Below are positions 4,873 to 32,888 of a stretch of DNA of 64,000 nt, piece after piece. Source of the stretch: Lentzea sp. NBRC 105346 (GTDB lineage: Bacteria > Actinomycetota > Actinomycetes > Mycobacteriales > Pseudonocardiaceae); the NCBI RefSeq assembly GCF_030269605.1, contig NZ_BSTQ01000023.1, positions 1 through 64,000 of the forward strand, written 5' to 3'. The first letter of the stretch is position 1, and each line of letters begins with the position of its first letter. The translations under genes were made by a program, and so were the position numbers. The notes under the pieces are model-generated. The model was not told the origin of the DNA. It searched no databases and saw only the letters and a list, made by a program, of their open reading frames with translations.

Positions 4873-4980
4873 CCCGCGGGCCCGAACGGACAGTTCAGAG
4901 GTGTCGAGTGGGCAACTCACCAGGGCTGAATGTCCCACTCGCGCCAGGTGGGACCCGCCGGACAAGTAGGGTTCGGCCCC

Positions 4981-6417
4981 ATGGGGTTCGTTCGTCTCAC
5001 CGCGGCGGTGGCCGCGCTCTCGATGCTCTGCGCGTGCAGCTCGGTCGTCGAGGGCACACCGAGAGGCGAGCGGCCCGACCCGACGAAGGTCGCCGGACTG
5101 GACATCACCACGGGCGACAGCGGACCGAAGAAGGGCGTGCCCGACGCCGACCTGCACGTCGAGAACGGCGACGGCGGCGAGATGGACCGGCTGGCGATCA
5201 ACACGCTCGCCGACGTGCAGGAGTTCTGGACCGCGGAGCTGCCCGCGCAGTTCGGGGGTAAGGCGTTCGAGCCGGTGAAGCGGCTGGTGTCGTACGACTC
5301 GACGGGTAAGGGCGTCGAAGTCTGCAAGATCGACACCGCGGGCGTCGCGAACGCGTTCTACTGCTCGCTCGACGACAGCATCACGTGGGATCGCGGCGAT
5401 CTGCTGCCGATGTTGAACGACTCGTTCGGCCCGCTCGCCGTGGTGACCGTGCTGGCGCACGAGATGGGCCACGCCGTTCAGTACAAGCTCGGGTCCGCCT
5501 CCGGCATCACGCAGAACACGCCGTCGATCGTGAAGGAACAGCAGGCCGACTGCTACGCGGGCACGTTCTTCCGGTGGATGGCGGAGGACAAGGCCAAGCA
5601 CTTCCAGATCTCGACCGGGCCGGGGCTGAACAAGGTCCTGCAGACGATGTTCTTCATCCGCGACTCGGCCGGCCAGTCGTTCGAGAAGCAGGGGGCGCAC
5701 GGCAGCGCCTTCGACCGCGTGTCGGCGTTCCAGTTCGGGTTCGCGCGCGGCGCCAAGAGGTGTGCCGACATCGACGAGGCCGAGATCCAGCAGCGCATCA
5801 CCGAGCGAAAGTTCGACCCCAAGGACACCGACACCGGGCAGGGGCGCGGCAACGCCAAGGTCGACAGCGAGCAGTACCTGCAGGCGCTGGAACGGAGTCT
5901 GCGCGAGGCCTACAAGTCGTCCGGCGCCACGTTCCCCGCCCTCGACCGGGCCGGCACCAACGAGTGCAACGACGCCAAGACGACGAACCCCGCGTCCTTC
6001 TGCCCGGCCAGCAACCAGGTGGGGCTCGACCTTCCCGGACTGGTGCGCGTCGGCACGCCACCGAAGAAGGGACAGAAGGGCGGCATCGGCGACTTCGCCG
6101 CGTTCGCCGTCATCGCGTCACGCTTTTCGCTGTCCATTCAGAAGGCGACCGGGTTCCGGCTCGACGACGAGGCCGCCGGGCAGCGGACCGCGTGCCTCAC
6201 CGGGGCGTGGGCGGGCGAGACGAACAAGCCGACCGCGGAGCTCAAGCTGTCGCCGGGTGATCTGGACGAGGCGGTCGCGGAGTTGCTGGCGGACAACAGT
6301 TTGATCGCTGCGGACGTCAACGGGCAGACCGTCCCGTCGGGCTTCGCCCGGGTCGAGGCCTTCGGGGACGGGTTCTTCGGCGGGTCCAGCACCTGCGTGC
6401 GGAAGTACTCGAACTAG
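4981..6417 (+). CDS. lipoprotein neutral zinc metallopeptidase (copy 1)
   Basis: A 478-residue lipoprotein. The lipobox L16-C17-A18-C19 sets the ATG at 4981 as start (an in-frame ATG at 4930 would bury it). The zinc motif HEMGHAVQ begins at residue 160 within VTVLAHEMGH, followed by the ADCYAG segment expected to supply a third ligand region and by AHGSAFDRVSAFQFG. This is the arrangement of the putative neutral zinc metallopeptidase family (PF04228-like). It is probably exported and anchored to the outer membrane face. It converges on a paralogue, sharing four bases at the stops. Substrate is unknown. Confidence 0.85.
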   Translation: MGFVRLTAAVAALSMLCACSSVVEGTPRGERPDPTKVAGLDITTGDSGPKKGVPDADLHVENGDGGEMDRLAINTLADVQEFWTAELPAQFGGKAFEPVKRLVSYDSTGKGVEVCKIDTAGVANAFYCSLDDSITWDRGDLLPMLNDSFGPLAVVTVLAHEMGHAVQYKLGSASGITQNTPSIVKEQQADCYAGTFFRWMAEDKAKHFQISTGPGLNKVLQTMFFIRDSAGQSFEKQGAHGSAFDRVSAFQFGFARGAKRCADIDEAEIQQRITERKFDPKDTDTGQGRGNAKVDSEQYLQALERSLREAYKSSGATFPALDRAGTNECNDAKTTNPASFCPASNQVGLDLPGLVRVGTPPKKGQKGGIGDFAAFAVIASRFSLSIQKATGFRLDDEAAGQRTACLTGAWAGETNKPTAELKLSPGDLDEAVAELLADNSLIAADVNGQTVPSGFARVEAFGDGFFGGSSTCVRKYSN

Positions 6418-7784
6418 GACACACCGCACTTCTTGGCGCCCTCGAAGACGCCCACGCGGAACACGGCCACGCGCTGGAACCCCGGCTCCAGCGCCGAACC
6501 ACCGGAGCTGTCCCGCGCCGCGAAGTTGTACTCCAGCAACACGTTCACGGCCTCGTCCATGTCACCGGGTGACAACCCGAAGCCGTCCTTACGCGCCAGC
6601 ACCGTGCCCGTGTAGGCGCCGGCCAGGCACAACGCCGAACGAGCGGCCTCGTCTCCGGAGACCGGCTTGCCCAGCACGGCCAGCTCGGCCATGCCGTAGC
6701 GGGACGCGAGCAGCACGCCGGTCGCGTAGTCGCCCAGTTCCTTGTGCAGCTCGGGCAACGTCTGCTTCACGTCGACCTTGATGGTCTTGTCGGACGGGCA
6801 GTACGCGACCGGTCCTTGATCACCGGAACAGGTCGGCTCCTCCTGCGACGCCTCCGCCTTCGGTGCGGTGTAAGTCTTTCCGAGCTGCTGGGCCAGCGCT
6901 TCGTAGAACTTGTTGAGGTCCGGCGTGATCGACTCGAGCATGTCGGAGAACGGCAGGTTGCCGCCGCGCGCGCGGTCGTCGATGTTGGTGAACGCCGCCT
7001 GCGTGAAGACCCGGTTCTGCACGGTCATCGCGGCGCAGAACTTCGAGCCCTGCTGGTAGCCGTCCTGGAACGCGGCCACGCGGTCGAACGCGCTGCCGTG
7101 CGCCTGCGCGTCCGTGGGCGAGGTGCCGACCGGGTCGCGGAACGTGATCAGCGCGCCGAGCGCCGAGTCGAGGGTGTCGCTGCCGATGTCCAGGTGCGGC
7201 GCCTGGCCGTCGTTGACCCACTTGATGAACGAGCCGGCGAAGCAGTCGGCCATGGCCTCGGTGAGGATCGTCGGGAACCGGTCCGGCTCGCGGCGTTCCG
7301 CCTCGGGCGTGATGCCCATGCGGCGCTGCACGGCGTGGCCCATCTCGTGCGCCAGCACGATCACGACCGCGGCCTGGCCGAACTTGTCCTCCAGTACCGG
7401 CAGCAGCGCCGTGCGGTCCCACGCGATCGCGTCCGCGGCGGGACAGTAGAAAGCGTTGCCTTCGACGTCCGAGGCTTTCTCCGTACACGGTGGGGGTTTC
7501 GCCGAATTGTCCGAAGTGTCGACCGAGTAGTAACCGCCGGTCAGCTTCTGCCACGGTTTGCCGAAGGTCGACTTGAAGGCGTCCGTCCAGTACTGCTCGA
7601 TGTCCGTGAGCGCCGTCGCGGCCAGCTGGTCGATCCGGCCGCCGTCGGTGCCGCGCACCTCGGTCGTGCTCGAGCCCTCGTTGCGCACGACCTTCGCGGC
7701 GGTCGGCCGCCCTGGTATCGCGGTGGAGCATCCCGCGACGACGAGTGCCAGCACGACCAGCAACGCGATCTTCGACTGCCGCAT
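6414..7784 (-). CDS. lipoprotein neutral zinc metallopeptidase (copy 2)
   Basis: A 456-residue paralogue of the convergent neighbour. A signal peptide with lipobox VAGC at about residue 20 supports the ATG at 7784, which has AGGGTG just upstream. The zinc motif HEMGHAVQRRMG starts at residue 146, followed by MADCFAGSFIKWV and AHGSAFDRVAAFQDG, collinear with the first copy. Both proteins end with a Cys-containing segment and share the KLSPGDLDEAV/GLSPGDMDEAV motif near the C-terminus. The stop codons of the two genes overlap (6414-6417). Family placement is firm; function beyond probable extracytoplasmic proteolysis is not known. Confidence 0.85.
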   Translation of the reverse strand: MRQSKIALLVVLALVVAGCSTAIPGRPTAAKVVRNEGSSTTEVRGTDGGRIDQLAATALTDIEQYWTDAFKSTFGKPWQKLTGGYYSVDTSDNSAKPPPCTEKASDVEGNAFYCPAADAIAWDRTALLPVLEDKFGQAAVVIVLAHEMGHAVQRRMGITPEAERREPDRFPTILTEAMADCFAGSFIKWVNDGQAPHLDIGSDTLDSALGALITFRDPVGTSPTDAQAHGSAFDRVAAFQDGYQQGSKFCAAMTVQNRVFTQAAFTNIDDRARGGNLPFSDMLESITPDLNKFYEALAQQLGKTYTAPKAEASQEEPTCSGDQGPVAYCPSDKTIKVDVKQTLPELHKELGDYATGVLLASRYGMAELAVLGKPVSGDEAARSALCLAGAYTGTVLARKDGFGLSPGDMDEAVNVLLEYNFAARDSSGGSALEPGFQRVAVFRVGVFEGAKKCGVS

Positions 7785-8091
7785 CACCCTATTGTGCAGT
7801 GTGCGGCCCGGCCTGGCTGGTGTGTTCGGCGGCATGTTAGGGCCAACGTGTCCGGCGTCGCTCCGGTTCACCGCCACGGGTGATGACGATCGTCGGAACC
7901 TCACTCAGTGCGTTGTCTGAACCTTTGCGCGGTCTTGACGCGATAAATCCGATCGCAGGCGCGGTCGACGAACGAATTCACTCGGCTGGGTATCACCCGT
8001 AACGGGGATGAACGCGCGGGTAATGCGCTCACTTCAAATATATGTTTCACGTCCCATTTTCGTTGTTCCCACCGGAGCAGGGAGTCCTCCT
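7785..8091. other. divergent promoter region, no gene seen
   Basis: 307 bases between the leftward zinc-protease lipoprotein and the first giant surface-protein gene. The right half is AT-richer than its surroundings (around TTCAAATATATGTTTC at 8034). It ends with GGAG at 8081-8084, seven bases before the GTG at 8092. A CCCGTaACGGG dyad lies near 8000. No convincing sigma-70 pair can be named. Confidence 0.5.
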
Positions 8092-11000
8092 GTGAAGAGA
8101 TTGCTGTCCACAGTGGTCACGACCGCGCTCGTCGCCGGAGTAGCCCTGTTCGGTGCCGCCGCGACAGCGGTCGCCGCACAAGATCCGCCGGCCGGCTGTG
8201 TCGGCGGCGTCCTGTCCAATCCGAGCGTCGACCAGACGACGACGGGATCCGAGGGCGGCGCGCCGACCGGTTACACCTTCGTCCCCGCGGCCAACGTGCC
8301 GAGCGGGACGCCGAACAGCAAGAAGCCTCGGCTGTACACGGACGACACCTACACCCAGGACGGCTCCTTCTACGCGCTGATCGCCACGCCGGACAACCAG
8401 GTGTCCATGGCGTACGAGGAGGCGCCCGCGATCCCCGGCGGCGTCTACGACCTCTCGGTGTGGACCGGCACGCACGACACCGGCCAGGACAACATCACCG
8501 GCATCAAGTTCTACGACGCCAACGGTGTCCAGGTTGGACAGACCTACAGCCAGCAGGTCACCCACGACGTCGACGACGACCGGAAGCTCGGCCGGCAGAA
8601 CCTGTACGGCATGGTGGCGCCCGCGAACGCCGCCAAGGTCCGGTTCTACGCCCAGACCAACTTCAACTGGATCAAGTGGGACTGCGTGTACCTCCGCGTC
8701 TCCGCCTACACCATCCTGAAGGAGGTGCAGGACCCCGCGACCGGCAACTGGCTGGACGCCGACGCCGTCGCGGGTTCGCCGGGCAGCAACAACCCGGCGC
8801 CGGCCGCGATCCCGGCCGGTGGCACGGCCAACTACCGGATCACGGTGAAGAACGTCGGCACCGAACAGCTGACCGGAATCACCGTCAACGATCCGTGGTG
8901 CACCGCGGGACTCGACACAGCCGCGTTCTCGTTGAACGGCGGCGCGAGCAAGGTGCTCACCTGCAGCCACGCAGGGGTACAGGTAGCGGACAGCGGGCAC
9001 ATCAACACGGCGACCGCGTCGAACGTGAAGTACTGGAACGGAAATCTGCCCAACAAGTCCGAGACCGCCGCGATCACGGTGACCCCGCCGCCCGCGAACA
9101 ACAAGGTCGGCGACTACGTCTGGGTGGACACCAACAACAACGGTCTGCAGGACGATGGCGAGCCCGGCGTCCCGAACGTCACGGTGAAGCTGAGCGACGG
9201 CAAGACCACGACCACGGACGCGAACGGCAAGTACCTGTTCGACCAGCTGCCGGACGGCAAGTACTCCGTCTGCTTCGACCTCGGCACTCTGTCCGGCCAG
9301 TACGCCGGGTACGTGCCGACCAAGCCGGACGCGGGTGACGACGCCAAGGACTCCGACGCGGACGCGAAGGGCTGCACGCCGGAGACGACGCTGGGGCCGG
9401 ACAAGCGCGAGGACCTGACGCTCGACCTGGGCATCGTGCCGCCGGTCAACAACAAGGTCGGCGACTACGTCTGGGTCGACAACAACCGCAACGGTCTGCA
9501 GGACGCCGACGAGCCGGGTGTCGACGGCGTGCCGGTGAAGCTGAGCACCGGCGCGACCACGACGACCGCGCAGGGCGGCAAGTACCTGTTCGACAAGCTG
9601 CCCGACGGCAAGTACTCCGTCTGCTTCGACCTGAAGAACCTTCCGGCGCAGTACGCGGGTTACCTCGCGACGAAGCCTGATGCGGGCGACGACACCAAGG
9701 ACTCCGATGCGAATGCCGACGGCTGCACGCCGGAGACGACGCTCGGACCGGACAAGCGCGAGGACATGACCCTCGACGCCGGTATCCGCCCGCCGAACCG
9801 CCTCGGTGACTTCGTGTGGGTGGACAACAACCGCAACGGTCTGCAGGACGCGGACGAGCCCGGCGTTCCCGATGTGACCGTCAAGCTGAACACCGGCGCG
9901 ACGACGAAGACGGACGCGAACGGCAAGTACATCTTCGAGAAGCTGCCGGACGCGACCTACACGGTCTGCTTCGACCTGGCCAACCTGCCCGCGCAGTACG
10001 CGGGTTACCTGGCCACGAAGCCGGACGCGGGATCCGACGACGCAAAGGACTCGGACGCCGGAGCCGACGGCTGCGCGCCCGCGACGTCGCTCGGCCCGGA
10101 GAAGCCCGAGGACCTGACGCTCGACGCGGGTATCCGGCCGCCGAACAAGCTCGGCGACTACGTGTGGATCGACACCAACAAGAACGGTCTGCAGGACGAC
10201 GGCGAACCGCCGGTGCCCGGCGTGACCGTGAAGCTCGGTGACAAGACCACGACCACCGACGCGCAGGGCAAGTACGTCTTCGACAAGCTGCCCGACGGCG
10301 ACTACACGGTCTGCTTCGACCTGAAGGCGTTGCCGCAGCAGTACGCGGACTACGTTGCCACGAAGACGAATGCGGGAGATGACGCCAAGGACTCCGACGC
10401 CGACCCGGCCACGGGTTGCGCGCCGAAGACCACGCTCGGCATCGACAACCCGGAGGACCTGACCATCGACCTCGGTCTGGTTCCGCCGGTGAACCGCCTC
10501 GGCGACTACGTGTGGGTGGATGTCAACAAGGACGGCTTGCAGGACGCCTCTGACATCCCGGTCGAGGGTGTCACGGTCAAGCTGAACACCGGCGCGACCA
10601 CGACGACCGACGCACAGGGCAAGTACCTGTTCGACAACCTGCCCGACGGCTCGTACTCGGTGTGCTTCGACATCAAGAACCTGCCCGCGAAGTACGCGGA
10701 CTACGTGGTGACGAAGCAGAACGCCGGTGACGACGCCAAGGACAGTGACGCGGACCCGGCCACGGGCTGCACGGCGACCACGACGCTGGGCGTCGGCAAG
10801 CGTGAGGACCTGACGCTCGACCTGGGTCTCGTCGCGCCGCCGAACAAGCTCGGCGACTACGTGTGGGTCGACCTCAACAAGAACGGTGTGCAGGACAACG
10901 GCGAACCCGGTGTCCCGAACGTGCCGGTCAAGCTGAGCGACGGCAAGACCACGACCACCGACGCCAACGGCAAGTACGTGTTCGACAACCTGCCGGACGG

Positions 11001-12354
11001 CAAGTACTCGGTGTGCTTCGGACCGATGCCCGCGCAGTACGCGGACTTCCAGTTCACCAAGCCCAATGCGGGTGACGACGGGGTGGACTCGGACGCCGAC
11101 CCGGCGACCGGGTGCACGCCGGAGGTCGAGTTGGGTGTCGGCAAGCGGGAGAACCTGACGCTCGACGCGGGTATCTCGGCCCCGGTGAACCGCCTCGGCG
11201 ACTACGTGTGGGTGGACAGCAACAAGAACGGCCTGCAGGACGCCGGCGAGAAGCCGGTGCCCGGTATGCCGGTCAAGCTGAACACCGGCCAGTCGACGAC
11301 GACGGACGCCGGCGGCAAGTACCTCTTCGAGGACCTGCCGGACGGCACGTACACCGTCTGCTTCGGACCGATGCCAAAGGACTACGCCGACTACGCGTTC
11401 ACCAAGCCGAACGCGGGCGATGACACCAAGGACTCCGACGCCGACGACAAGGGTTGCGCGGAGCCGGTCACGCTGGGCGTGGGCAAGCGGGAGAACCTGA
11501 CCGTCGACGCCGGCATCGTGGCGCCGCCGAACAGGATCGGTGACCTGGTGTGGTTCGACAAGAACCGCAACGGGCTCCAGGACGACGGCGAGCCCGGCGT
11601 CCCCGGTGTCACCGTGAAGCTCAGCGACGGCACCACCACGAAGACCGACGCCGACGGCCGGTACCTGTTCCCGGACATCCCGGACGGCACCTACAAGGTG
11701 TGCTTCGACATGAACGCACTGCCAGGTGAGTACGCCGGGTACCTCGCGACGAAGCCCAACGCCGGCGACGACGCCAGGGACTCCGATGTGGACGGTGCGA
11801 CCGGGTGCACGCCGCCGGTGACGGTCGGTGTGGGCAAGCGGGAGAACCTGACCCTGGATCTCGGCATCGTGCCGCCGACGAACCGCCTCGGCGACTTCGT
11901 CTGGTACGACGACAACTCCAACGGGATCCAGGACCCGAAGGAGCCCGGTGTGCCGAACCTGCCGGTGTACCTGCAGGACGGCAACGGCAAGCCGGTTGCG
12001 TCCACCAAGACCGACTCCGACGGCAAGTACCTGTTCACCGACCTGCCCGACGGTGAGTACAAGGTCTGCTTCAACGCCGACCCGAGGTCGGGCCTGGTGG
12101 CCGGTCGCAAGCTGACCAAGGCCAACGTGGGCGAGGACGGCCGCGACTCCGACGCCGACCCAGCGACCGGATGCACGCCGGTCGTCAAGCTCGGCAAGGA
12201 CAAGCGGGTGGACCTGACGCTCGACGCGGGTCTGCTGCCCAAGCCGCTCGCCGCCACGGGCGCGTCGGTCTGGGGCCTCCTCGCGGCGGGGCTCGCCCTG
12301 CTGCTGGGTGGTGCGGCTCTGGTCCTGACGGGACGTCGCCGCCGCGAGTCCTGA
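8092..12354 (+). CDS. giant SdrD_B-repeat surface protein A, LAxTG-anchored
   Basis: 1420 residues. Sec signal peptide 1-29 (cleavage likely after AVAA). An N-terminal globular domain (about 30-225) resembles carbohydrate-binding beta-sandwiches. A DUF11-type domain follows (about 226-335, NYRITVKNVGTEQLTGITVN). Then come nine SdrD_B/Cna-B-like repeats of about 115-120 residues, each opening N-[KR]-x-G-D-x-V-W-x-D-x-N-x-[ND]-G-x-Q-D. The C-terminus has a sorting signal LAATG, a hydrophobic segment and GRRRRES, as for actinobacterial class E sortase substrates. Each repeat carries two cysteines (VCF and GC), suggesting one disulfide, and an Asp-rich loop suited to calcium. Start: GTG with GGAG seven bases upstream; the in-frame ATG at 8008 lacks this. 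No sortase gene lies in the window. Confidence 0.88.
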   Translation: MKRLLSTVVTTALVAGVALFGAAATAVAAQDPPAGCVGGVLSNPSVDQTTTGSEGGAPTGYTFVPAANVPSGTPNSKKPRLYTDDTYTQDGSFYALIATPDNQVSMAYEEAPAIPGGVYDLSVWTGTHDTGQDNITGIKFYDANGVQVGQTYSQQVTHDVDDDRKLGRQNLYGMVAPANAAKVRFYAQTNFNWIKWDCVYLRVSAYTILKEVQDPATGNWLDADAVAGSPGSNNPAPAAIPAGGTANYRITVKNVGTEQLTGITVNDPWCTAGLDTAAFSLNGGASKVLTCSHAGVQVADSGHINTATASNVKYWNGNLPNKSETAAITVTPPPANNKVGDYVWVDTNNNGLQDDGEPGVPNVTVKLSDGKTTTTDANGKYLFDQLPDGKYSVCFDLGTLSGQYAGYVPTKPDAGDDAKDSDADAKGCTPETTLGPDKREDLTLDLGIVPPVNNKVGDYVWVDNNRNGLQDADEPGVDGVPVKLSTGATTTTAQGGKYLFDKLPDGKYSVCFDLKNLPAQYAGYLATKPDAGDDTKDSDANADGCTPETTLGPDKREDMTLDAGIRPPNRLGDFVWVDNNRNGLQDADEPGVPDVTVKLNTGATTKTDANGKYIFEKLPDATYTVCFDLANLPAQYAGYLATKPDAGSDDAKDSDAGADGCAPATSLGPEKPEDLTLDAGIRPPNKLGDYVWIDTNKNGLQDDGEPPVPGVTVKLGDKTTTTDAQGKYVFDKLPDGDYTVCFDLKALPQQYADYVATKTNAGDDAKDSDADPATGCAPKTTLGIDNPEDLTIDLGLVPPVNRLGDYVWVDVNKDGLQDASDIPVEGVTVKLNTGATTTTDAQGKYLFDNLPDGSYSVCFDIKNLPAKYADYVVTKQNAGDDAKDSDADPATGCTATTTLGVGKREDLTLDLGLVAPPNKLGDYVWVDLNKNGVQDNGEPGVPNVPVKLSDGKTTTTDANGKYVFDNLPDGKYSVCFGPMPAQYADFQFTKPNAGDDGVDSDADPATGCTPEVELGVGKRENLTLDAGISAPVNRLGDYVWVDSNKNGLQDAGEKPVPGMPVKLNTGQSTTTDAGGKYLFEDLPDGTYTVCFGPMPKDYADYAFTKPNAGDDTKDSDADDKGCAEPVTLGVGKRENLTVDAGIVAPPNRIGDLVWFDKNRNGLQDDGEPGVPGVTVKLSDGTTTKTDADGRYLFPDIPDGTYKVCFDMNALPGEYAGYLATKPNAGDDARDSDVDGATGCTPPVTVGVGKRENLTLDLGIVPPTNRLGDFVWYDDNSNGIQDPKEPGVPNLPVYLQDGNGKPVASTKTDSDGKYLFTDLPDGEYKVCFNADPRSGLVAGRKLTKANVGEDGRDSDADPATGCTPVVKLGKDKRVDLTLDAGLLPKPLAATGASVWGLLAAGLALLLGGAALVLTGRRRRES
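9101..12237 (+). repeat. nine tandem SdrD_B repeats in protein A
   Basis: In-frame units of about 340-360 bp start near 9101, 9454, 9796, 10144, 10495, 10846, 11191, 11527 and 11881. Units 3-5 end in GIRPP, GLVPPV and GLVAPP. Units 6-9 match units 9-12 of protein B one-to-one by their linkers (GISAPV, then variable, then GIVPP/GIVSP, then GLLPKP). Confidence 0.85.
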
Positions 12355-12362
12355 TGTAGGTG

Positions 12363-12413
12363 CCGTCATGGCCACCTTCACGGACCTCAGGTCCGTGAAG
12401 GTGGCCATAACGG
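12363..12413. repeat. GGCCACC palindrome, copy 1 (AGGTCC loop type)
   Basis: A 51-bp palindrome centred on 12388, nine bases after the stop of surface protein A. Arms begin CCGTCATGGCCACCTTCAC and close through GGACCT-C-AGGTCC. There is one C/A mismatch near the base of the stem. It probably terminates transcription of the surface-protein gene, although no U-tract longer than TCTTCTC follows. Confidence 0.8.
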
Positions 12414-12718
12414 TCTTCTCACCCGAACGGTGGGCACCGGCGTGGGTGAGTGTCCACTGTGTACTCGCGGGTTGGCGACTCTCCGTTGATGACGACGCCG
12501 CTAATGTGTGGCGTGTCGATCGGACATATCGCACTCTCATTTACGGAATGTGGTTATTGCTTGTGGTAAACGGGTGGGTTTGAGGCAGTTAATTCACCCG
12601 TTGTAGTGACAATGCGTTATCCCTCAGTGATCGCGAACCTTCGATAGTGCAAATAAAGTGTCGTTTTGCGAAATTCCCGCAGTGAGTCCCCGTCCTGCTG
12701 CACAAGGAGCGTCTTCTC
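12414..12718 (+). promoter_or_regulatory. AT-rich leader/promoter region of surface protein B
   Basis: 305 bases without a gene between the palindrome and the second surface-protein gene. Composition drops well below the local GC level around 12535-12670 (for example CTCATTTACGGAATGTGG and GCAAATAAAGTG). It ends with AAGGAG at 12704-12709, nine bases before the GTG. A promoter is expected here; no exact -35/-10 pair is claimed. Confidence 0.5.
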
Positions 12719-15700
12719 GTGAAACGACCACTTGCCGCCGCGCTGGCAGCCTTGGTGGCCGCCTCGTCCGCGGTGGCGATGCCCGTCCAAGCGAACGCCG
12801 GACCAGGCGACGGCACGCTGACTGTCAAAGTCGTGCGTGACGTCAACGGCAACGGGACGTACGAGCAGGCGCTCGAGGTGGGTGTCGCCGGCGCGAGCGT
12901 GCTCGTGACAGACCCCGCGGGCGCCACCGCGGCCGGCACCACCGACGCCGCCGGTTCGGTGGCCGTCGGCCTCGGCTCGGTCACCGGCGGCAAGTACCGG
13001 GTGCAGGTCAGCCCGCCCGCCGGCAGTGTCCTGCAGCCCGCCCCCGCGGGCGCGGGGCTCGAGAGCAACACGATGTTCGTGGACGTCTCCGGCGGCAAGA
13101 ACGTCACCGTCACCACGGGCCTGTGGAACCCCGCCGATTACTGCCAGGCCAACCCGACCCTGGTCACCGCCTGCCAGCGCGCCACCCGCAAGCGCGACGG
13201 CAGCAGCAACGTGGACAACGGTTCGCGCTCGCTGGTGAGCTTCCCGTTCACCCAGCGCGGCGACGCCGACGCGACGCAGATCGCGAACCAGGGCCAGACC
13301 GGCTCGGTCTACGGCATCGGCTACCGCAAGCAGGACAAGCGGATCTTCTCCGCCGCGTTGGCCAAGCGGCTCACCAACTACGGTCCCGCCGGACCGGGTG
13401 GCATCTACGTGACCCCTGCGGGCGGTGGTGCCACGACGACGTTCGCCACCGTGCCCAACGCGGGCACCGGTGCGCATAACCACGGCACCAACTTCGACGG
13501 GCCGTTCTTCCCGTTCGTCGGCAAGCAGGCGCTCGGTGACCTCGACGTCACCGAGGACGGCAGCGAGCTCTACGTCGTCAACCTGAACGACAAGAAGCTC
13601 TACGCCTACGACGCGACCGGCGCGACCGCCAGTGCCCCCAAGGGTTCCTGGGCGATCCCCGGCACCGCGTGCGCCAACGCCGCCGACTGGCGGCCGGGCG
13701 CGCTCGGCATCCGCGACGGCAAGATCTACGTCGGTGGTGTCTGCTCGGCGCAGTCGTCCCGCAACGTCGCCGACCTCAAGGCGGTCGTGATGACGTTCGC
13801 CGGTGGCACGTTCAGCGCGCCGGTGCTCGCCAAGACGCTGAACTTCCAGCGCGGCATGGCCAAGGAAACCCGGCCGAACAGCAACAAGTGGTACCCCTGG
13901 ACGGACAACTGGGACCAGACCGAGGTCGACGACAAGCACGAGACCTACCCGTCGCCGTTCCTGACCGACATCGGCATCGAGAACGACGGCGACCTGGTCC
14001 TCGACTTCCGCGACCGGTTCGGCGACCAGGGTGGCTACAAGATCCCCGCGCCGGACGGCTCCGGCGGCGAGCACGAGACCATGACCGGCGGTGACCTCAA
14101 CCGGGCGTGCCTCGTCAACGGCGCCTTCGTCTGGGAGGGCACCTCTGCGGCCTGCCCGGACAACCAGACCGCCTCCAACGGCGGCAGCGAGCCCGCCAGC
14201 GTGGTCGAGTACTACCCCGGTGAGTTCTACGCGAACTCGGAAGGCCTCGGTCAGCACCAGGAGACCTCGCAGGGTGGTCTCGCGCTGGTCTACGGCCAGC
14301 AGCGGATGCCCGCGATCGTTCTCGACCCGGTGGCCGTGCGGTCCGGCGGTGTCGGCTGGTTCGATCGCACCACGGGTGACATGCAGAACCCGCAGCACAG
14401 CAACAGCTACCAGATCTCCAAGCTGGAGAACGACCCCGAGGGCTGGGGCAAGGCGAACGGCCTCGGCGACCTCGAGGCGCTGTGCGACCTGGCCCCGGTG
14501 CAGATCGGTAACCGCGTCTGGTTCGACACCGACGGCGACGGCATCCAGGACGGCGACGAGCCCGCGGTCGCGGGTGTGAAGGTCACCGCCACGCCGTGTG
14601 CCGGTGGTGCCGCACTGGGCACGAAGACCACGAACGCCAAGGGTGAGTACTACTTCGGCGCCGCGGACGGTCTGAAGGCCGAGACCTGTTACAACCTCGC
14701 CTTCGACTACAGCGCGGTGAACACGGCGACACTGCCGGGCGCTCCGGCCGCGGCCGATCTCAAGTGGACGGTCAAGGAGGCCGGGCCCGACCGGGTTCCG
14801 GACTCCAATGTGGACGCCGCGGGCAAGGCCTCGGTGACCACCGGCAAGGCCGGCACCGCCGACCACACCATCGACGCCGGCATCGTCGCGAAGATCACCA
14901 ACAAGCTCGGTGACTTCGTGTGGATCGACACGAACCGCAACGACGTGCAGGACTCCGGTGAGCCGGGCGTCCAGGGCGTGACCGTGGTGCTCAAGGACGG
15001 CAGCGGCAACCCGATCGGATCGCCGAAGCAGACCGACGCCTCCGGCAAGTACCTGTTCGACCAGCTCGCGGACGGCACCTACAAGGTGTGCTTCGACCTG
15101 TCGACGCTGCCCGCGCAGTACGCCGGGTACGTCTACACGACGAAGGACGCACCGAGCGACGACGCCAAGGACTCCGACGCCGATCCGGCGGACGGCTGTA
15201 CGCCGCCGACGACGCTCGGGCCGCAGAAGCGCGAGGACCTGACGCTCGACGCGGGTCTCGTGCCGCCGAACAACAAGCTCGGCGACTACACGTGGGTCGA
15301 CAACAACCGCAACGGCCTGCAGGACGACGGCGAACCGCCGGTGCCCGGCGTGACCGTCACGCTGAAGGACGGCACGGGCGCCACGGTCGGCTCGCCGAAG
15401 ACGACGGACGCGCAAGGCAAGTACCTGTTCGACCAGCTGCCGGACGGCACCTACCAGGTGTGCTTCGACTTCTCGACCGCACCGGCCGAGTTCCAGGACT
15501 ACCTGCTGACGAAGCCGAACGCCGGCGATGACGCGAAGGACTCCGACGCCGATCCGGCGACGAAGTGCAGCGCCACCACCACACTCGGCCCGAACAAGCG
15601 TGAGGACCTCACGCTCGACGCGGGCATCCGGCCGCCGAACAAGCTCGGCGACTACGTGTGGATCGACACCAACAAGAACGGTCTGCAGGACGACGGCGAA

Positions 15701-18700
15701 CCGCCGGTGCCCGGTGTGACCGTGAAGCTGAGCGACGGCAAGACCACGACCACCGACGCGCAGGGCAAGTACGTCTTCGACAAGCTGCCCGACGGTGACT
15801 ACACGGTCTGCTTCGACATCGCGAACATGCCGGCCCCGGTGGCCGACTACCAGGTGACGAAGCCCGCCGCCGGCGACCCGGCCAAGGACTCCGACGCGGA
15901 CCCGGCCACGGGCTGCGCGCCGAAGACCACGCTGGGCATCGACAAGCCGGAGGATCTGACCATCGACATGGGTCTGATCCCGCCGGTGAACCGCCTCGGC
16001 GACTACGTGTGGATCGACGTCAACAAGGATGGTCTGCAGGACGGCTCGGACATCCCGGTCGAGGGCGTGACGGTGAAGCTGAACACCGGCGCGACCACGA
16101 AGACGGATGCCCAGGGCAAGTACCTGTTCACCGACCTGCCGGACGGCACCTACACGGTGTGCTTCGACATCGCGAACCTGCCGGACGCGGTGAAGGACTA
16201 CAAGGTCACCACGAAGGATGCCGGTGACGACGCCAAGGACTCCGACGCCGATCCGGCGACGGGTTGTGTGCCGCCCACGACGCTGGGCACCGGGAAGCGT
16301 GAGGACCTGACCCTCGACATGGGTCTGGTCTCCCCGCCGAACAAGCTCGGTGACTTCGTGTGGGTCGACGCCAACCGCAACGGTGTCCAGGACGCCGGCG
16401 AAGCGCCGGTGCCGGGTGTCTCGGTGACGTTGAAGGACGGCAGCGGCAACCCGGTCGGCCAGCCGGTCGTGACGGACGCGCAGGGCAAGTACCTGTTCGA
16501 CAACCTGCCGGACGGCACGTACTCGGTCTGCTTCGACATGGCGAAGCTGCCCGCGCCGTACACGGCGTACCTGCCGACGCGTCCGGACGCCGGTGGCGAC
16601 GACGCGAAGGACTCGGACGCGGGTGCCGACGGCTGCACGCCGCCGACCTCGCTCGGGTCGGCCAAGCGTGAGGACATCACGCTGGACGCGGGTATCCGGC
16701 CGCCGAACAAGCTGGGCGACTTCGTGTGGGTCGACACCAACAAGAACGGCATCCAGGATCCGGGCGAGCCGGGTGTGCCGGGTGTGACCGTGAAGGTGGG
16801 CGACAAGACCACCACCACGGACCCGAACGGCAAGTACGAGTTCCCGGACCTGCCGGACGGCGAGTACCAGGTGTGCTTCGACATCGCCAACATGCCCGCG
16901 CAGTACGCGGACTACCAGGTGACGAAGCCGAACGCCGGTGACGACGGTGTGGATTCGGACGCGGACCCGGCCACGGGCTGCGCGCCGAAGGTCACGTTGA
17001 ACGTGGACAAGCCGGAGGATCCGACGATCGACATGGGTCTGATCTCGCCGGTGAACCGCCTCGGTGACTACGTGTGGATCGACGTCAACAACGACGGTCT
17101 GCAGGACGCCACCGACAAGCCGGTCGAGGGCGTGACCGCCAAGCTGCTCGACGGGACGGGCAAGGAGCTCGGTACCACCAAGACCGACGCTTCGGGCAAG
17201 TACCTGTTCGACAACCTGGCGGACGGCACCTACAAGGTCTGCTTCGACCTCAAGGCGTTGCCGGCCGCGGTCGCCGACTACAAGGTGACCAAGCAGGACG
17301 CCGGTGACGACGCCAAGGACTCGGACGCGGGTGCGGACGGTTGCACGGCGACGACCACGCTCGGGACGGGCAAGCGTGAGGACCTGACGCTGGACATGGG
17401 TCTGGTCTCCCCGCCGAACCGCCTCGGTGACTACGTGTGGGTCGACACCAACAAGAACGGTGTGCAGGACTCCGGCGAGCCCGGTGTGCCCGGTGTTCCG
17501 GTCAAGTTGAGTGACGGCAAGACGACGGTTACCGACCCGCAGGGCAAGTACATCTTCGAGAACCTGCCCGACGGCAAGTACTCCGTGTGCTTCGGTCCGA
17601 TGCCGGCGCAGTACGCCGACTACCAGTACACGAAGCCCAACGCGGGCGACGACGGTGTGGACTCGGACGCCGATCCGGCGACCGGCTGCACGCCGGAGGT
17701 CGAGCTGGGCACCGGCAAGCGCGAGAACCTGACGCTCGACGCGGGTATCTCGGCCCCGGTGAACCGCCTCGGTGACTACGTGTGGATCGACGCCAACAAG
17801 AACGGGCTGCAGGACGCCGGTGAGAAGCCGGTGCCCGACGTGCCCGTGAAGCTGAGCAACGGCGCCACGACGAAGACGGACGCTTCCGGTAAGTACCTGT
17901 TCTCGGATCTTCCGGACGGGACTTACTCGGTCTGCTTCGGCCCGATGCCGGCGGCGGTCGCCGACTACACGTTCACCAAGCCGAACGCGGGCGCCGACGC
18001 GACCGACTCGGATGCCGATCCGGCCACCGGGTGCACGCTGACCACGACCCTCGGTGTGGGCAAGCGTGAGGACCTGACGCTGGACGCGGGCATTTTCGCG
18101 CCGGAGAACTACATCGGCGACCTGGTGTGGTCGGACAAGAACCGCAACGGTCTGCAGGATCCGGACGAGCCCGGCCTGCCGGGTGTGCCGGTGCGCCTGT
18201 ACGACCCGTCCGGCAAGCCGGTCGGCGACCCGGTGAAGACCGGGCCGGACGGCAAGTACGCGTTCGACGACATCCCGGACGGCACCTACAAGGTGTGCTT
18301 CGAGATGGGCGCGCTGCCTGGTGACTACGCCGGTTACCTCGCGACCAAGCCGAACGCGGGTGACGACGCGAAGGACTCCGATGTGGATCCGGCTTCCGGG
18401 TGCACGCCGCCGGTGACGGTCGGCGTGGGCAAGCGGGTCGACCACACCGTGGACCTGGGCATCGTCTCGCCGATGAACCGCGTTGGTGACTTCGTCTGGT
18501 ACGACGACAACTCCAACGGTCTGCAGGACCCCAACGAGCCGGGCGTGCCTGGTCTCCCGGTGTACCTGCAGGACGGCAACGGCAAGCCGGTGGCGTCCAC
18601 CAAGACCGACAAGGACGGCAAGTACCTGTTCACCGACCTGCCCGACGGTGAGTACAAGGTCTGCTTCAACGCCGATCCGAAGACGGGCCTGGTGGCCGGC

Positions 18701-18967
18701 CGCAAGCTGACCAAGCCGAACGCCGGTGACGACGGTAAGGACTCCGACGCCGATCCCGTCTCGGGCTGCACGCACGTCGTGAAGCTCGGCCGGGACAAGC
18801 GGGTGGACCTGACGCTCGACGCGGGTCTGCTGCCCAAGCCGGTCACGGCCCAGCCGCCGCTCGCCTCCACGGGTGCGACGATCTGGGGCTTCCTCGGGGC
18901 CGCGCTCAGCTTGTTGCTGGCCGGTGCGTTCCTGCTCCTGATGGGCAGGCGCCGCCGGGAGTCCTGA
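12719..18967 (+). CDS. giant SdrD_B-repeat surface protein B, LAxTG-anchored
   Basis: 2082 residues. Signal peptide 1-27 (cleavage near VQANA). A Cna-B-like domain with DVNGNGTYEQALEVGVAGA comes first (about 30-130). A large globular region (about 140-590) follows, with propeller-like segments such as QTGSVYGIGYRKQDKRIFSA and LGDLDVTEDGSELYVVNLND. Then come twelve SdrD_B repeats, the first divergent (NRVWFDTDGDGIQDGDEPAV), and a C-terminal LASTG, hydrophobic segment and GRRRRES tail. It is a paralogue of the upstream gene, with different head domains but a nearly shared repeat stalk. GTG start with AAGGAG upstream. Probably a long wall-anchored stalk or adhesin; ligand unknown. Confidence 0.88.
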   Translation: MKRPLAAALAALVAASSAVAMPVQANAGPGDGTLTVKVVRDVNGNGTYEQALEVGVAGASVLVTDPAGATAAGTTDAAGSVAVGLGSVTGGKYRVQVSPPAGSVLQPAPAGAGLESNTMFVDVSGGKNVTVTTGLWNPADYCQANPTLVTACQRATRKRDGSSNVDNGSRSLVSFPFTQRGDADATQIANQGQTGSVYGIGYRKQDKRIFSAALAKRLTNYGPAGPGGIYVTPAGGGATTTFATVPNAGTGAHNHGTNFDGPFFPFVGKQALGDLDVTEDGSELYVVNLNDKKLYAYDATGATASAPKGSWAIPGTACANAADWRPGALGIRDGKIYVGGVCSAQSSRNVADLKAVVMTFAGGTFSAPVLAKTLNFQRGMAKETRPNSNKWYPWTDNWDQTEVDDKHETYPSPFLTDIGIENDGDLVLDFRDRFGDQGGYKIPAPDGSGGEHETMTGGDLNRACLVNGAFVWEGTSAACPDNQTASNGGSEPASVVEYYPGEFYANSEGLGQHQETSQGGLALVYGQQRMPAIVLDPVAVRSGGVGWFDRTTGDMQNPQHSNSYQISKLENDPEGWGKANGLGDLEALCDLAPVQIGNRVWFDTDGDGIQDGDEPAVAGVKVTATPCAGGAALGTKTTNAKGEYYFGAADGLKAETCYNLAFDYSAVNTATLPGAPAAADLKWTVKEAGPDRVPDSNVDAAGKASVTTGKAGTADHTIDAGIVAKITNKLGDFVWIDTNRNDVQDSGEPGVQGVTVVLKDGSGNPIGSPKQTDASGKYLFDQLADGTYKVCFDLSTLPAQYAGYVYTTKDAPSDDAKDSDADPADGCTPPTTLGPQKREDLTLDAGLVPPNNKLGDYTWVDNNRNGLQDDGEPPVPGVTVTLKDGTGATVGSPKTTDAQGKYLFDQLPDGTYQVCFDFSTAPAEFQDYLLTKPNAGDDAKDSDADPATKCSATTTLGPNKREDLTLDAGIRPPNKLGDYVWIDTNKNGLQDDGEPPVPGVTVKLSDGKTTTTDAQGKYVFDKLPDGDYTVCFDIANMPAPVADYQVTKPAAGDPAKDSDADPATGCAPKTTLGIDKPEDLTIDMGLIPPVNRLGDYVWIDVNKDGLQDGSDIPVEGVTVKLNTGATTKTDAQGKYLFTDLPDGTYTVCFDIANLPDAVKDYKVTTKDAGDDAKDSDADPATGCVPPTTLGTGKREDLTLDMGLVSPPNKLGDFVWVDANRNGVQDAGEAPVPGVSVTLKDGSGNPVGQPVVTDAQGKYLFDNLPDGTYSVCFDMAKLPAPYTAYLPTRPDAGGDDAKDSDAGADGCTPPTSLGSAKREDITLDAGIRPPNKLGDFVWVDTNKNGIQDPGEPGVPGVTVKVGDKTTTTDPNGKYEFPDLPDGEYQVCFDIANMPAQYADYQVTKPNAGDDGVDSDADPATGCAPKVTLNVDKPEDPTIDMGLISPVNRLGDYVWIDVNNDGLQDATDKPVEGVTAKLLDGTGKELGTTKTDASGKYLFDNLADGTYKVCFDLKALPAAVADYKVTKQDAGDDAKDSDAGADGCTATTTLGTGKREDLTLDMGLVSPPNRLGDYVWVDTNKNGVQDSGEPGVPGVPVKLSDGKTTVTDPQGKYIFENLPDGKYSVCFGPMPAQYADYQYTKPNAGDDGVDSDADPATGCTPEVELGTGKRENLTLDAGISAPVNRLGDYVWIDANKNGLQDAGEKPVPDVPVKLSNGATTKTDASGKYLFSDLPDGTYSVCFGPMPAAVADYTFTKPNAGADATDSDADPATGCTLTTTLGVGKREDLTLDAGIFAPENYIGDLVWSDKNRNGLQDPDEPGLPGVPVRLYDPSGKPVGDPVKTGPDGKYAFDDIPDGTYKVCFEMGALPGDYAGYLATKPNAGDDAKDSDVDPASGCTPPVTVGVGKRVDHTVDLGIVSPMNRVGDFVWYDDNSNGLQDPNEPGVPGLPVYLQDGNGKPVASTKTDKDGKYLFTDLPDGEYKVCFNADPKTGLVAGRKLTKPNAGDDGKDSDADPVSGCTHVVKLGRDKRVDLTLDAGLLPKPVTAQPPLASTGATIWGFLGAALSLLLAGAFLLLMGRRRRES
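14503..18834 (+). repeat. twelve tandem SdrD_B repeats in protein B
   Basis: Units start near 14503, 14902, 15271, 15640, 15991, 16339, 16705, 17053, 17419, 17762, 18106 and 18478. Linkers of units 3-5 (GIRPP, GLIPPV, GLVSPP) repeat in units 6-8 (GIRPP, GLISPV, GLVSPP), and both triplets match units 3-5 of protein A. This reads as an internal duplication of a three-repeat block. Confidence 0.8.
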
Positions 18968-18974
18968 TTTAGTG

Positions 18975-19025
18975 CCGTTAAGGCCACCATCACTGCGCTC
19001 AACGCAGTGATGGTGGCCTTAACGG
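18975..19025. repeat. GGCCACC palindrome, copy 2 (TGCG loop type)
   Basis: A perfect 23-bp stem (18975-18997 with 19003-19025) and loop CTCAA. The left arm runs CCGTTAAGGCCACCATCAC then TGCG. It sits between the convergent surface-protein B and small secreted-protein genes, 7 and 4 bases from their stops, so it probably serves as a bidirectional terminator. Confidence 0.85.
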
Positions 19026-19571: not shown

Positions 19572-20336
19572 ATGCGTTATCGACCGATGGACACCGACCC
19601 TGCTGACCCGCGTCTTGGCCGGTATGTGCCGGACGACTGGCGTCACGTCGACAGCTATCCGCTGAGTGCCCTGGAGGCGCCGCCGACCCGCGTGCCCGTG
19701 GTGATCGGCGTCAACTGGTACGCCGAGATGGACAAGCCGGCGAAGGACGAGCGGTCCGGTGAGCTGTTCCTCGCGCGGGACAAGAAGCTGAGCCGCATCC
19801 GGGGCGGGCACTGCGTGTGCCTCGAGCCCGGCGAGGGACCGGACCAGACGGAGTGGCAGAAGTTCTACGACCAGGGGCAGGAGGGCGCCTGCGTCGGGTT
19901 CGGGTGGTCGCGCGCCATGTCGATCCTCAACGGCGGGAAGTACGCCGCGCGCTGGTTGTGGTCGCGGGCAAAGGAGAAGGACGAGTGGCCGGAGACCAAG
20001 CCCGGTGACAACGAGGGCACGTCGGTGCGCGCGGCCGGCGAGCAGCTGGTGGCGCTCGGGCACGTGCCGTGGCAGGAGTCGTATGCGGCGGACGACTACC
20101 AGAAGCGGTTCGGGTACAAAGCCGAGGCACAGCACGGGATCGCGGCGTTCCGGTGGGCCAAGACCGTGGACGAGGTGCACGCCGTGCTCGGCAACAAGCG
20201 GGCTGACGAACTCGGTGCCGTGCCGATCCTCAACTCGTGGGGCACCGGTTACCCGATCCGGGTGTGGCTGCCCGACGAGGTGTTCGCGCGGTTGATCAGC
20301 GAGGACGGCGAGATCGCCGTCCCCACCGACCGCTAG
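19572..20336 (+). CDS. papain-like (C1-type) protein with reordered catalytic segments
   Basis: 254 residues, no signal peptide. Motifs of actinobacterial/phage C1-like peptidases are present: YDQGQEGACVGFGWSRAMS (Q101 or Q103, C107), EGTSVRAAGE (149-156), VVIGVNWYAEM (43-53), RGGHC (H80) and ILNSWGTGYP (N221). In ordinary C1 enzymes the order is Gln/Cys, then the VVIG-NWY/GGH block, then Asn-Ser-Trp-Gly. Here the VVIG-NWY/GGH block precedes the Cys. All four catalytic-type residues remain, so activity is plausible but unproven. The ATG has GGAGGGGG upstream. The substrate is unknown. Confidence 0.65.
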   Translation: MRYRPMDTDPADPRLGRYVPDDWRHVDSYPLSALEAPPTRVPVVIGVNWYAEMDKPAKDERSGELFLARDKKLSRIRGGHCVCLEPGEGPDQTEWQKFYDQGQEGACVGFGWSRAMSILNGGKYAARWLWSRAKEKDEWPETKPGDNEGTSVRAAGEQLVALGHVPWQESYAADDYQKRFGYKAEAQHGIAAFRWAKTVDEVHAVLGNKRADELGAVPILNSWGTGYPIRVWLPDEVFARLISEDGEIAVPTDR

Positions 20337-30815: not shown

Positions 30816-32888
30816 TCACTGCCCCTTAGCGTTCCGGAGGGTGCCGTTATGGCCACCATCACGGACCTCAGGTCCGTGATGGTGGCCATAACGGTCTTTC
30901 GCTTGCCGGTGGAGTTCGAGGCAGCGGGCGACGGTGCCGATCTCGTCGGGGCGCTGCGGGTAGATGACCGTGCGGGTGTCACCGGCGGCGAAGCGGTCCG
31001 CGACCGACGCGAGCCGGCGCAGCGGCAGCACCAGGACCAGCAGGTGCCAGCCGAGCATCCCGAGCGCGACGACGGCCGCCACCAGCGCGGCCAGCCACGC
31101 GCCGCGCCGGATGTGGTTGCCGGGCAACGGGAGCTGGCTCACCGGCTGCTCGATGACGACCGTCCACTGCAGCTCGTTGGTCGCCTGCGAGCCGTAGATC
31201 GCGGCGGCCGCGACCACGGACAGCCGGCCGTCGACCTCGTGCACGGCGGGCTCGGCGGCGCCGTGCATGGCGCTGGTCACGCTGCGCCGCAACGGTTCCG
31301 CGGTCAACTCCTCGTACGCGCGGAAACCGACGGTCGCGGCGACCGTGCGCAGACCCGAGTCGACGAGCCGGCCCACGCCACCCGGCTTGCGGGCCAGGGC
31401 GGACAGCTTCACCACGTCCAGTTCGCCGATCACCACGTGCTTGCCGTCGGCGAGCTGGGCCGCGGCGTAGATGATCGGCACCCGGCCCGCGGTGTCCTGC
31501 TGGTGCAGGCCGAACCCGTCGGGCGGCGGTTGCTCGGCGCGCAAAGGCTTGCGGCCCGCCCGCGCCAGTATCACGCCCTGCGGGTCGATGACGTACACGC
31601 TGCGGTAGCGCGGGTGGCGCGCGGACATCTCCTGCAGCACCGGGTCGAGCTCGTCGGTGTCGGTGATCCGCGCGGCCATCGCCCGCAGGTCGGTCAGGCT
31701 CTGCTGCAGGCTGCGGCGCAACGTGTGCGCGGTGTTCGCGGCGAGGCTCTGGGTGATCTCCACCGCCTGTTGCGGTACGCGCACCTCCTGCCTGCCCAGC
31801 GTCCACAGCACCCCGCCGGACCAGCCGATCAGGACGAGGAACGCGAGGACGACCGCGACCAGTGCCGAACACCGGCCGGGCGGGCCCGTCGCGCCGAACG
31901 CGCCCGCGATGCGGCGGGTCTCCGAGATCCGGTACCGGCGGCCCGGCCAGGACTGTCCGGATGCGACGGTCATCGCGTCGCGGCGCAACCGCCGGACCGG
32001 CCGCACCAGGCCTCCGCCGATCAGCAACGCGACCACGAGCGTCACTCCGAGCAGCGAAAGAGCGGGCCACAGGCCGCCCACCGTGACCGCGTCGTCGTCC
32101 GGTGGCGTGGCGCCGGACAGCAGCACGGAGATGCCAAGCCGGGCCTTGGCCGTGCCCGTCGTCACCGGCGAGTAGGCGACGATCGGCACGACGGCGCGCC
32201 CATCCGCCAGCGCCTGCTCGGCGCCGACCAGGTGGCCGCCTGTTCCGGACGTGGCGGCAGCGGCGGCCCGCGTGATCAGCTCATCGCCGGCGCTGGAACC
32301 GATCACCTCACCGCCGTCGGTCGCCAGCAGCACCGTGGACGGCAGCCGCAGGCTGTCCACGGCGGGCGCGGGGACGGCGAGGTCCATCGACATGATCACG
32401 AGCCGGTCGGTGCCGGTCAGCACGTCGGCGATCACCGTCTGCACGCCACCGTCGTGATCGGCCACCACGCGCACCGCGGACCCGGTGACCTCGCCGATGG
32501 CCAGCGACTCGATCGGCACGGCCTCACCGGCGGACGCCAGCAGCTTCCCCGACGACCGGTTGACCACGGCCAGCCCACGCGACCGCGGGGTGTTCTTCGC
32601 GAAGAACTCGATGGTCTGGTCCGTGCCGTAGTCGGGCCGGACGCCGTAGCGCCGCACGGCCGCCGCCAGGTCGCCCGCGGCCTCCCGCACCGACTCGCCG
32701 ACCGAGCGCGCGAGGTTCTCCGCGAACCACTGGTGCGAGCTGGCGACGACCTCCACCGACGAGCCGTCCTGGTGACCACCGAGCCGGACCCCGCAGAACA
32801 CCGCGAGCGACAGCAGCGCCACCACGGTCACGGCCAGCGGAACCCTTGCGCCCGAAGGAAAACCAGCTTCGGTGAGTGGCCGGCTCAT
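30816..32888 (-). CDS. duplicated TM-sensor-TM-HAMP membrane protein in pgs-like operon
   Basis: 690 residues with an internal duplication. Module 1: TM 16-35, extracytoplasmic Cache-like sensor (about 40-265), TM 272-294 and a short HAMP-like stretch (RPVRRLRRDAMTVASGQSW). Module 2: TM 341-364, a second Cache-like sensor (YRSVYVIDPQGVILARAGRK), TM 597-621 and a HAMP domain (618-662, PLRRLASVADRFAAGDTR). No kinase, cyclase or methyl-accepting output domain follows. The last 25 residues (RYGHHHGPEVRDGGHNG and a short tail) are mostly encoded by a GGCCACC palindrome, so the native C-terminus may have been replaced. Probable role: sensing or regulating polymer synthesis at the membrane (inference). 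Confidence 0.75.
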   Translation of the reverse strand: MSRPLTEAGFPSGARVPLAVTVVALLSLAVFCGVRLGGHQDGSSVEVVASSHQWFAENLARSVGESVREAAGDLAAAVRRYGVRPDYGTDQTIEFFAKNTPRSRGLAVVNRSSGKLLASAGEAVPIESLAIGEVTGSAVRVVADHDGGVQTVIADVLTGTDRLVIMSMDLAVPAPAVDSLRLPSTVLLATDGGEVIGSSAGDELITRAAAAATSGTGGHLVGAEQALADGRAVVPIVAYSPVTTGTAKARLGISVLLSGATPPDDDAVTVGGLWPALSLLGVTLVVALLIGGGLVRPVRRLRRDAMTVASGQSWPGRRYRISETRRIAGAFGATGPPGRCSALVAVVLAFLVLIGWSGGVLWTLGRQEVRVPQQAVEITQSLAANTAHTLRRSLQQSLTDLRAMAARITDTDELDPVLQEMSARHPRYRSVYVIDPQGVILARAGRKPLRAEQPPPDGFGLHQQDTAGRVPIIYAAAQLADGKHVVIGELDVVKLSALARKPGGVGRLVDSGLRTVAATVGFRAYEELTAEPLRRSVTSAMHGAAEPAVHEVDGRLSVVAAAAIYGSQATNELQWTVVIEQPVSQLPLPGNHIRRGAWLAALVAAVVALGMLGWHLLVLVLPLRRLASVADRFAAGDTRTVIYPQRPDEIGTVARCLELHRQAKDRYGHHHGPEVRDGGHNGTLRNAKGQ
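30844..30894. repeat. GGCCACC palindrome, copy 3, inside a coding end (AGGTCC loop type)
   Basis: A perfect 51-bp palindrome: 25-bp arms (left arm CCGTTATGGCCACCATCAC then GGACCT) around a single C at 30869. Unlike the other copies it lies inside an open reading frame, encoding 17 residues near the C-terminus of the HAMP protein, 28 bases before that gene's stop and just ahead of pgsB. It could lower read-through into pgsB-pgsC or stabilise the upstream message. Confidence 0.85.

Follow-up and report, generated by a model that had tools for sequence, protein, structure and literature searches.

Position-matched SdrD_B stalks in two neighbouring genes of Lentzea and a conflicting history of the B tip

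Results

Two tandem genes encode predicted wall-anchored rods

We analysed a 64,000-nucleotide stretch of Lentzea sp. NBRC 105346 (the window; bases 1–64000 of contig 23 in a 9.39 Mb assembly of 67 contigs), in which two genes, A and B, encode large repeat proteins as tandem neighbours, all of their features on the + strand. Each product is differentiated into a signal-peptide-like start (judged by eye), an N-terminal head, a stalk of SdrD_B units (PF17210; nine in A, twelve in B) and a C-terminal anchor. The gene coordinates and unit counts given in an earlier reading of this DNA (the original prediction) hold. The genome is that of a divergent Lentzea: four proteins of the locus average 82.0% identity to those of 20 other Lentzea, which average 89.5–92.9% on the same four.

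Gene A (8092–12354) is read from a GTG at 8092, chosen by eye; the mechanical open reading frame (ORF) list starts it at an ATG, 8008. Its head (8197–9099) combines a DUF7850 domain (PF25235, 206.5 bits against a cut-off of 27; residues 64–229, numbered from the ATG) with a weak DUF7617/DUF11-like domain (residues 270–349), scoring 26.4 bits for DUF7617, slightly under the cut-off of 27.4, and 20.8 for B_ant_repeat, under 24. A single-sequence model of this head was poor (predicted local distance difference test (pLDDT) 42) and was not used. The stalk follows as units 1–3 (9100–10143), 4–5 (10144–10842) and 6–9 (10843–12231), and the anchor (12232–12351) comprises LAATG, a hydrophobic stretch and an RRRR tail (NF058582, 23.1 bits, under the cut-off of 27).

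Gene B (12719–18967) opens with a β-domain (12809–13126, residues 31–136) that is Ig-like by eye, has strands in the model described below and is kept among Lentzea B proteins. There follow a propeller cassette (13160–14482, residues about 148–588), a divergent unit 1 that forms its own class (14498–14899), unit 2 (14900–15271), units 3–5 (15272–16339), units 6–8 (16340–17416), units 9–12 (17417–18829) and an anchor (18827–18964) with LASTG, a hydrophobic stretch and an RRRR tail, here over the NF058582 cut-off at 29.4 bits. The heads of A and B were predicted to differ, and direct comparison finds no similarity between them (best E 0.70); the B head matches no family in Pfam.

SdrD_B scores total 849 bits for A and 1,161 for B (gathering cut-off 29.7), and all 9 + 12 units exceed the cut-off individually. 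Every one of these 21 units holds two cysteines; staphylococcal B domains are not known to have them. A simple pattern finds an EF-like acidic loop in 118 of 123 extracted units, and the solved structures nearest by sequence are the B domains of SdrD and UafA. Staphylococcal B domains are described as binding three calcium ions and as mechanically very strong (PMC6232131), properties that the A and B units may share by analogy. Despite the common stalk unit, neither protein is a staphylococcal Sdr MSCRAMM (microbial surface component recognizing adhesive matrix molecules) by NCBIfam: A scores 572.5 and B 948.4 bits for SdrD (cut-off 2,500), 451.1 and 701.8 for SdrC (cut-off 1,700). The heads differ from those of that group, and by eye there is no SD-repeat region.

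Both proteins have the layout of an anchored substrate (LAxTG, hydrophobic stretch, positive tail), and a fitting sortase class is present: of five sortase-family genes in the genome, the best one falls in class E (249 bits, cut-off 160). Class E sortases of Streptomyces are described as using LAxTG (PMC5148588). A and B resemble the substrates treated there in motif and in the accompanying sortase, and differ in their very long stalks; their attachment to the wall is predicted from sequence and appears probable.

The stalks correspond by position from the fourth unit of A

When 79 units of nine Lentzea genes are placed in one tree, they group chiefly by position. The tree was built from stalk units other than B-type unit 1, within Lentzea only (Crossiella, Allokutzneria and Amycolatopsis units being left out), and uses the first units alone of the L. 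aerocolonigenes NRRL B-16140 gene, which contig ends split within the array. Clustering by gene, set beforehand as the refuting outcome, was not the main pattern.

The claim that A units 6–9 match B units 9–12 one to one is borne out by reciprocal best matches, with protein identities of 90% (A6/B9), 75% (A7/B10), 76% (A8/B11) and 87% (A9/B12); in the tree, A7 and B10 lie beside, not inside, the remaining class-10 units. For comparison, B units 2–12 are mutually 52–78% identical. The further claim, that A3–A5 correspond to both B3–B5 and B6–B8, stands for A4 and A5 against B4 and B5 (86% and 81%) and more weakly against B7 and B8: A5/B8 share 78%, and A4/B7 just 73%, under A4/A1 (77%). Inside B, the pairs B4/B7 and B5/B8 are each 78% identical. 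As a whole, the proposed collinear pattern scores 784.7, reached by 0 of 200,000 shuffles of B unit order; for its unit-3 part by itself, 7.5% of shuffles score as high.

The third unit is where this claim fails. A3 is most like A2 (78%), its sister in the tree (99/88), and shares 66% with B3 and 70% with B6. In all four B genes of 12 units, the identity of units 3 and 6 (64–70%) is no higher than that of units 2 and 3 (69–73%). The linker GIRPP is common to A3, B3 and B6, yet A2 ends in GIRPP too. The third unit is thus common by linker only and its correspondence is doubtful; A1–A3 have no one-to-one partner in B. Positional likeness starts at the A3/A4 boundary, at the site of the longest exact match between the genes (89 nucleotides; A 10132–10220, B 15626–15714).

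B-type stalks have probably shortened in steps and the duplication appears old

Stalk length varies among B orthologues, as predicted, with differences of three or four units between species. Six are complete in other Lentzea, with 8, 9, 9, 12, 12 and 12 units. L. alba, L. kentuckyensis and L. flava share the 12-unit form with the window; L. atacamensis (9 units) lacks classes 6–8, L. aerocolonigenes NBRC 13195 (9 units) lacks 3–5, and L. terrae (8 units) lacks 2 and 4–6. The related pairs 4/7 and 5/8 recur in the 12-unit genes of the three other species. Gene conversion, also proposed originally, is supported by units 5 and 8, which are 97% identical within the L. alba gene and likewise within that of L. 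kentuckyensis, as if homogenised.

According to the original prediction, A is the older gene, and B arose from it recently by duplicating block 3–5 and has a different head. In agreement with this, B carries two copies of units 4–5 and A one. The class-7 units of six Lentzea genes, however, form a clade (95/85) apart from class-4 units, and three other Lentzea have B genes of 12 units, so the duplication appears older than the species compared and the 9- and 8-unit forms are most simply losses. The distribution of heads also points away from an older A: a full-length A head is found in 0 of 23 other Lentzea (partial matches in 10), a B head in 7 of 23 plus one fragment. Divergence at fourfold sites, given next, is a further difficulty. 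We consider derivation of B from A very improbable and largely refuted, and its direction wrong. Because A has classes 4, 5 and 9–12, it too is without 6–8, and is best read as a B-type stalk minus those units. The duplication itself has sequence support for 4/7 and 5/8 alone and none for 3/6.

Fourfold-site identity between A and B (0.42 expected by chance) is 45/54 for A4/B4 (0.83), 36/53 for A5/B5, 40/56 for A6/B9, 27/48 for A7/B10, 34/52 for A8/B11, 44/58 for A9/B12 (0.76) and 19/23 for the anchors (0.83). Four of the six matched units (0.56–0.71) are therefore old, and the predicted recency does not apply to them; A4/B4, A9/B12 and the anchors look younger than the other matched stretches.

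The distal stalks of A and B pair with each other in the window

Joining the last four units places A and B together against six other Lentzea genes (100/99), and adding units 4–5 retains the pair (98/99) against four others, six genes in all. In another genus (taken as Amycolatopsis), 66 of 80 genomes have A-type heads, 64 of them in frames of at most 670 residues; one or two units follow the head in the first 12 examined. A single genome of that genus, G482, is the only other found with a long A-type gene, of 11 units with an LAKTG anchor. Its B-type gene (14 units) lies ~655 kb away, and the two stalks show no match by position (best 73%). In this comparison of two genomes, positional matching of A and B is seen only where the genes are neighbours. 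We also considered whether A1–A3 were imported from the short A-type proteins of that genus and rejected this, their likeness being no greater than for other units: against units 1 and 2 of the G482 A-type gene, A1 and A2 each reach 71%, with equal closeness elsewhere (A1/B4 72%; A2 and an Amycolatopsis B-type unit 73%).

Could the likeness of A and B be inherited from a common long ancestor, each position held by purifying selection, with no exchange between the genes? The position classes are old, and at fourfold sites the four more divergent A/B units stand about as far apart as B and its L. flava counterpart (0.46–0.67, four units). Taken singly, A4, A5 and A8 show no pairing with B: A4 goes with unit 4 of L. 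atacamensis and L. flava (99/95) in the protein tree and not with B4, A5 falls outside the 5/8 clade, and A8 lies outside the rest of class 11. Units 4–5 alone pair A with B weakly (38/73). Inheritance alone sits poorly with the A+B clade over the last four units, with an A1–A3 segment that has no positional partner in B, and with the unmatched stalks of G482. We judge it unlikely, and prefer exchange or copying between the neighbours.

The B tip is a predicted β-propeller with a separate history

The model of the B head (N-terminal β-domain and propeller) has a pLDDT of 88 and a predicted template-modelling (TM) score of 0.91. It matches the nidogen propeller 1npe with Z 24.4 (root mean square deviation 2.7, 256 residues aligned); Foldseek matches are weaker (best E 1.9e-7; for 1npe, TM 0.37 by query and 0.74 by target). 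The tip is thus predicted, at the level of fold only, to be a β-propeller set between conserved Ig-like domains, with what we take, from the matched folds, to be six blades. A sequence search of the PDB with the B head returned one short match, to a surface-layer protein (residues 245–280, 1.7e-6).

The propeller and its adjoining domains have conflicting histories, and this is the larger finding of the analysis. Lentzea species are conserved in the N-terminal domain and in unit 1 (76–95%), while their propellers divide into classes that share 57–65%; identity changes sharply at unit 1. Between L. flava and L. atacamensis, identity is 95, 96, 86 and 93% in four upstream proteins, 91% in the N-terminal domain, 83% in unit 1 and 63% in the propeller, for which pairing of the two species is rejected by the approximately unbiased (AU) test (p-AU 2.9e-5). 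In trees that include other genera, the propellers of L. alba, L. kentuckyensis, L. aerocolonigenes NBRC 13195 and L. terrae are sister to those of two named Amycolatopsis (100/100), and the window propeller groups with three Amycolatopsis propellers, from G482, G473 and G423 (86/98). A propeller tree with Lentzea monophyletic is rejected (p-AU 0.0009). The unit-1 tree has Lentzea as one clade (100/99), and for this unit grouping of the window with G482, G473 and G423 is rejected (0.013). Identities follow the same division: with G482 the window shares 61% in the N-terminal domain, 70% in the propeller and 73% in unit 1; with other Lentzea, 81–85%, 62–65% and 82–85%.

From this we infer that the propeller has probably been exchanged between species as a cassette. 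The head swapping of the original prediction is thereby supported in another form, as a B propeller whose tree conflicts with that of unit 1; the heads of A and B remain mutually dissimilar. Long-kept allelic variation under balancing selection, or uneven rates, could produce such a conflict with no transfer between genera. Several propeller classes at one Lentzea site would suit old alleles, as would the modest support of deep propeller nodes. Rates appear even within a class, the L. aerocolonigenes and L. terrae propellers being 91% identical, no faster than their N-terminal domain (77%) and unit 1 (91%). Against alleles stands the well-supported union of four Lentzea propellers with Amycolatopsis, and old alleles would still require recombination at the domain borders. 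Allelic variation with such recombination is the main alternative to cassette exchange, and a rather unlikely one.

Relatives of the B propeller lie at 13 loci (L062, L065–L075 and L077) in Streptomyces, Kitasatospora and Actinorhabdospora, where 15 of 15 frames carry one detected SdrD_B unit, positioned like unit 1 of B; at L074, three of these frames follow one another. The long array may have grown later, in Pseudonocardiaceae.

Among the genomes examined, only the window genome has the A/B pair in its slot

In the window, A is divergent from a zinc-peptidase gene and GlgB lies beyond B. Among the genomes examined, only this one has the A/B pair in the ZnP2–GlgB slot. Among 21 other Lentzea (20 loci and one G002 contig, with G012 and G023 left out of the sample), the slot holds a small DUF7850 protein free of SdrD_B units in 10, a 41-residue remnant in 1 and no match in 10. 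The seven other Lentzea with a full B head carry B at another site, with a common upstream flank. One gene of that flank has an orthologue in 23 of 23 other Lentzea (at least 86%) and only a 55% relative in the window genome; for the other, nothing matches at 1e-100 in the window genome, G011 or G015. A comparison of gene neighbourhoods found none of the window's neighbour genes at B loci in other species, and no Lentzea B flank at the loci of Crossiella, Allokutzneria or Amycolatopsis.

In L. indica (L049, G012:C120), positions 7653–8174 between the usual neighbours of B hold a broken B head with four in-frame TGA codons, which by its sequence is a decayed copy. L. aerocolonigenes NRRL B-16140 (L092, 4055–9388) encodes a large SdrD_B protein, DUF11-like by eye and cut by a contig end.

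Upstream of A, 4930–7904 holds two diverged zinc-peptidase genes (PF04228), on opposite strands here and on the same strand in 20 other loci, in a block kept across Lentzea with GlgB, TreS and GlgE. After B, a 254-residue ORF (19572–20336) matches nothing in Pfam or NCBIfam at 0.001, and nothing in the 23 other Lentzea at 1e-30.

A palindrome, GGCCACC...GGTGGCC, is dispersed through the window at 12370–12406, 18982–19018, 30851–30887, 40523–40550, 52523–52559 and 58310–58346, the copy at 40523 being shorter than the 37 bp of the other five. The stops of A and B are each directly followed by a copy. Half-sites match 13 times with at most one mismatch (one inside B) against 1.0 expected, and the strict pattern occurs 0 times in four other Lentzea loci. 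These palindromes are possibly terminators or a mobile repeat. The likeness of the A and B 3′ flanks (80 nucleotides, 77.5%) was considered as a segmental duplication and dropped, the flank being the dispersed palindrome.

Discussion

We favour, at a probability of roughly 60%, a reading of A and B as secreted, wall-anchored rods whose SdrD_B repeats double as recombination handles. The rods would hold their tips off the cell: on A, DUF7850 and a weak DUF11-like domain; on B, a β-propeller. An adhesive or sensing role for these tips would seem plausible. Short forms could arise when the 4/7 and 5/8 pairs cross over unequally, with a shift of three units. The distal stalk and anchor of A may be derived from, or homogenised with, those of neighbouring B, the junction lying near the A3/A4 boundary, and the propeller would move between species as a cassette. 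The original prediction, mostly right as an observation apart from the third unit, is upheld in its mechanism in general terms, and not in its direction nor, for most units, in its age.

Several results pull the other way. Length variation was compared between species only, with one genome per species and many drafts. Synonymous divergence is too great to call most of the A/B exchange recent. In the unit tree, the sister of unit 3 is unit 2 (97/93) instead of unit 6, class-4 units lie outside the class-7 clade and do not form one clade themselves, positions 5 and 8 are intermixed, and unit 6 of L. atacamensis, assigned to class 9 from its order and linker, is left unplaced. Because of these mixed or failed classes, donor, timing and extent of the duplicated block do not come out cleanly. 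For the propeller, the 86/98 node beside the three Amycolatopsis is not starred, and the groups for the AU tests were picked after identities were known.

Several known systems come close to these proteins. Periscope Proteins (SasG, Rib and Sgo_0707) are described as a tip on a tandem stalk with a sortase anchor and variable repeat number, for which homologous recombination is the proposed cause (PMC8201768, PMC9704523). The Lentzea proteins share this layout, repeat number varying between homologues (8–12 in B orthologues). They differ from the systems as described there in lacking very high repeat identity, in units that keep their positional identity, in length differences that fit steps of three units plus one single-unit loss, and in variation seen between species and not within one. 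Fibrillar adhesins with domain shuffling, as described in PMC8286594 and PMC10952558, likewise have an N-terminal tip and a C-terminal stalk, with tips occurring on many proteins; here the tips are a propeller or DUF7850, and exchange would take place inside one gene, between two conserved domains. Our literature search returned no paper on Lentzea with sortase, nor on SdrD with propeller and Streptomyces; searches for Amycolatopsis adhesin with sortase, and for SdrD B-like with actinobacteria, gave nothing on topic by title.

More tentatively, and with the odds somewhat against so broad a claim, Lentzea and Amycolatopsis may share a modular system of tip exchange, with the propeller, framed by two conserved β-domains, passing as a cassette between species and genera, stalks shortening in three-domain steps and neighbouring stalks being copied. 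In the variable-length surface rods of the papers cited above, repeats are described as near-identical; the repeats of these soil actinomycetes retain their positional identities, so that individual crossovers, conversions and exchanges of tips are legible in the sequence and the way in which stalks and tips change is directly testable. Partly shared stalks, stalk lengths that differ between sister species and tips with a history of their own show how such surface proteins may change their reach and their target.

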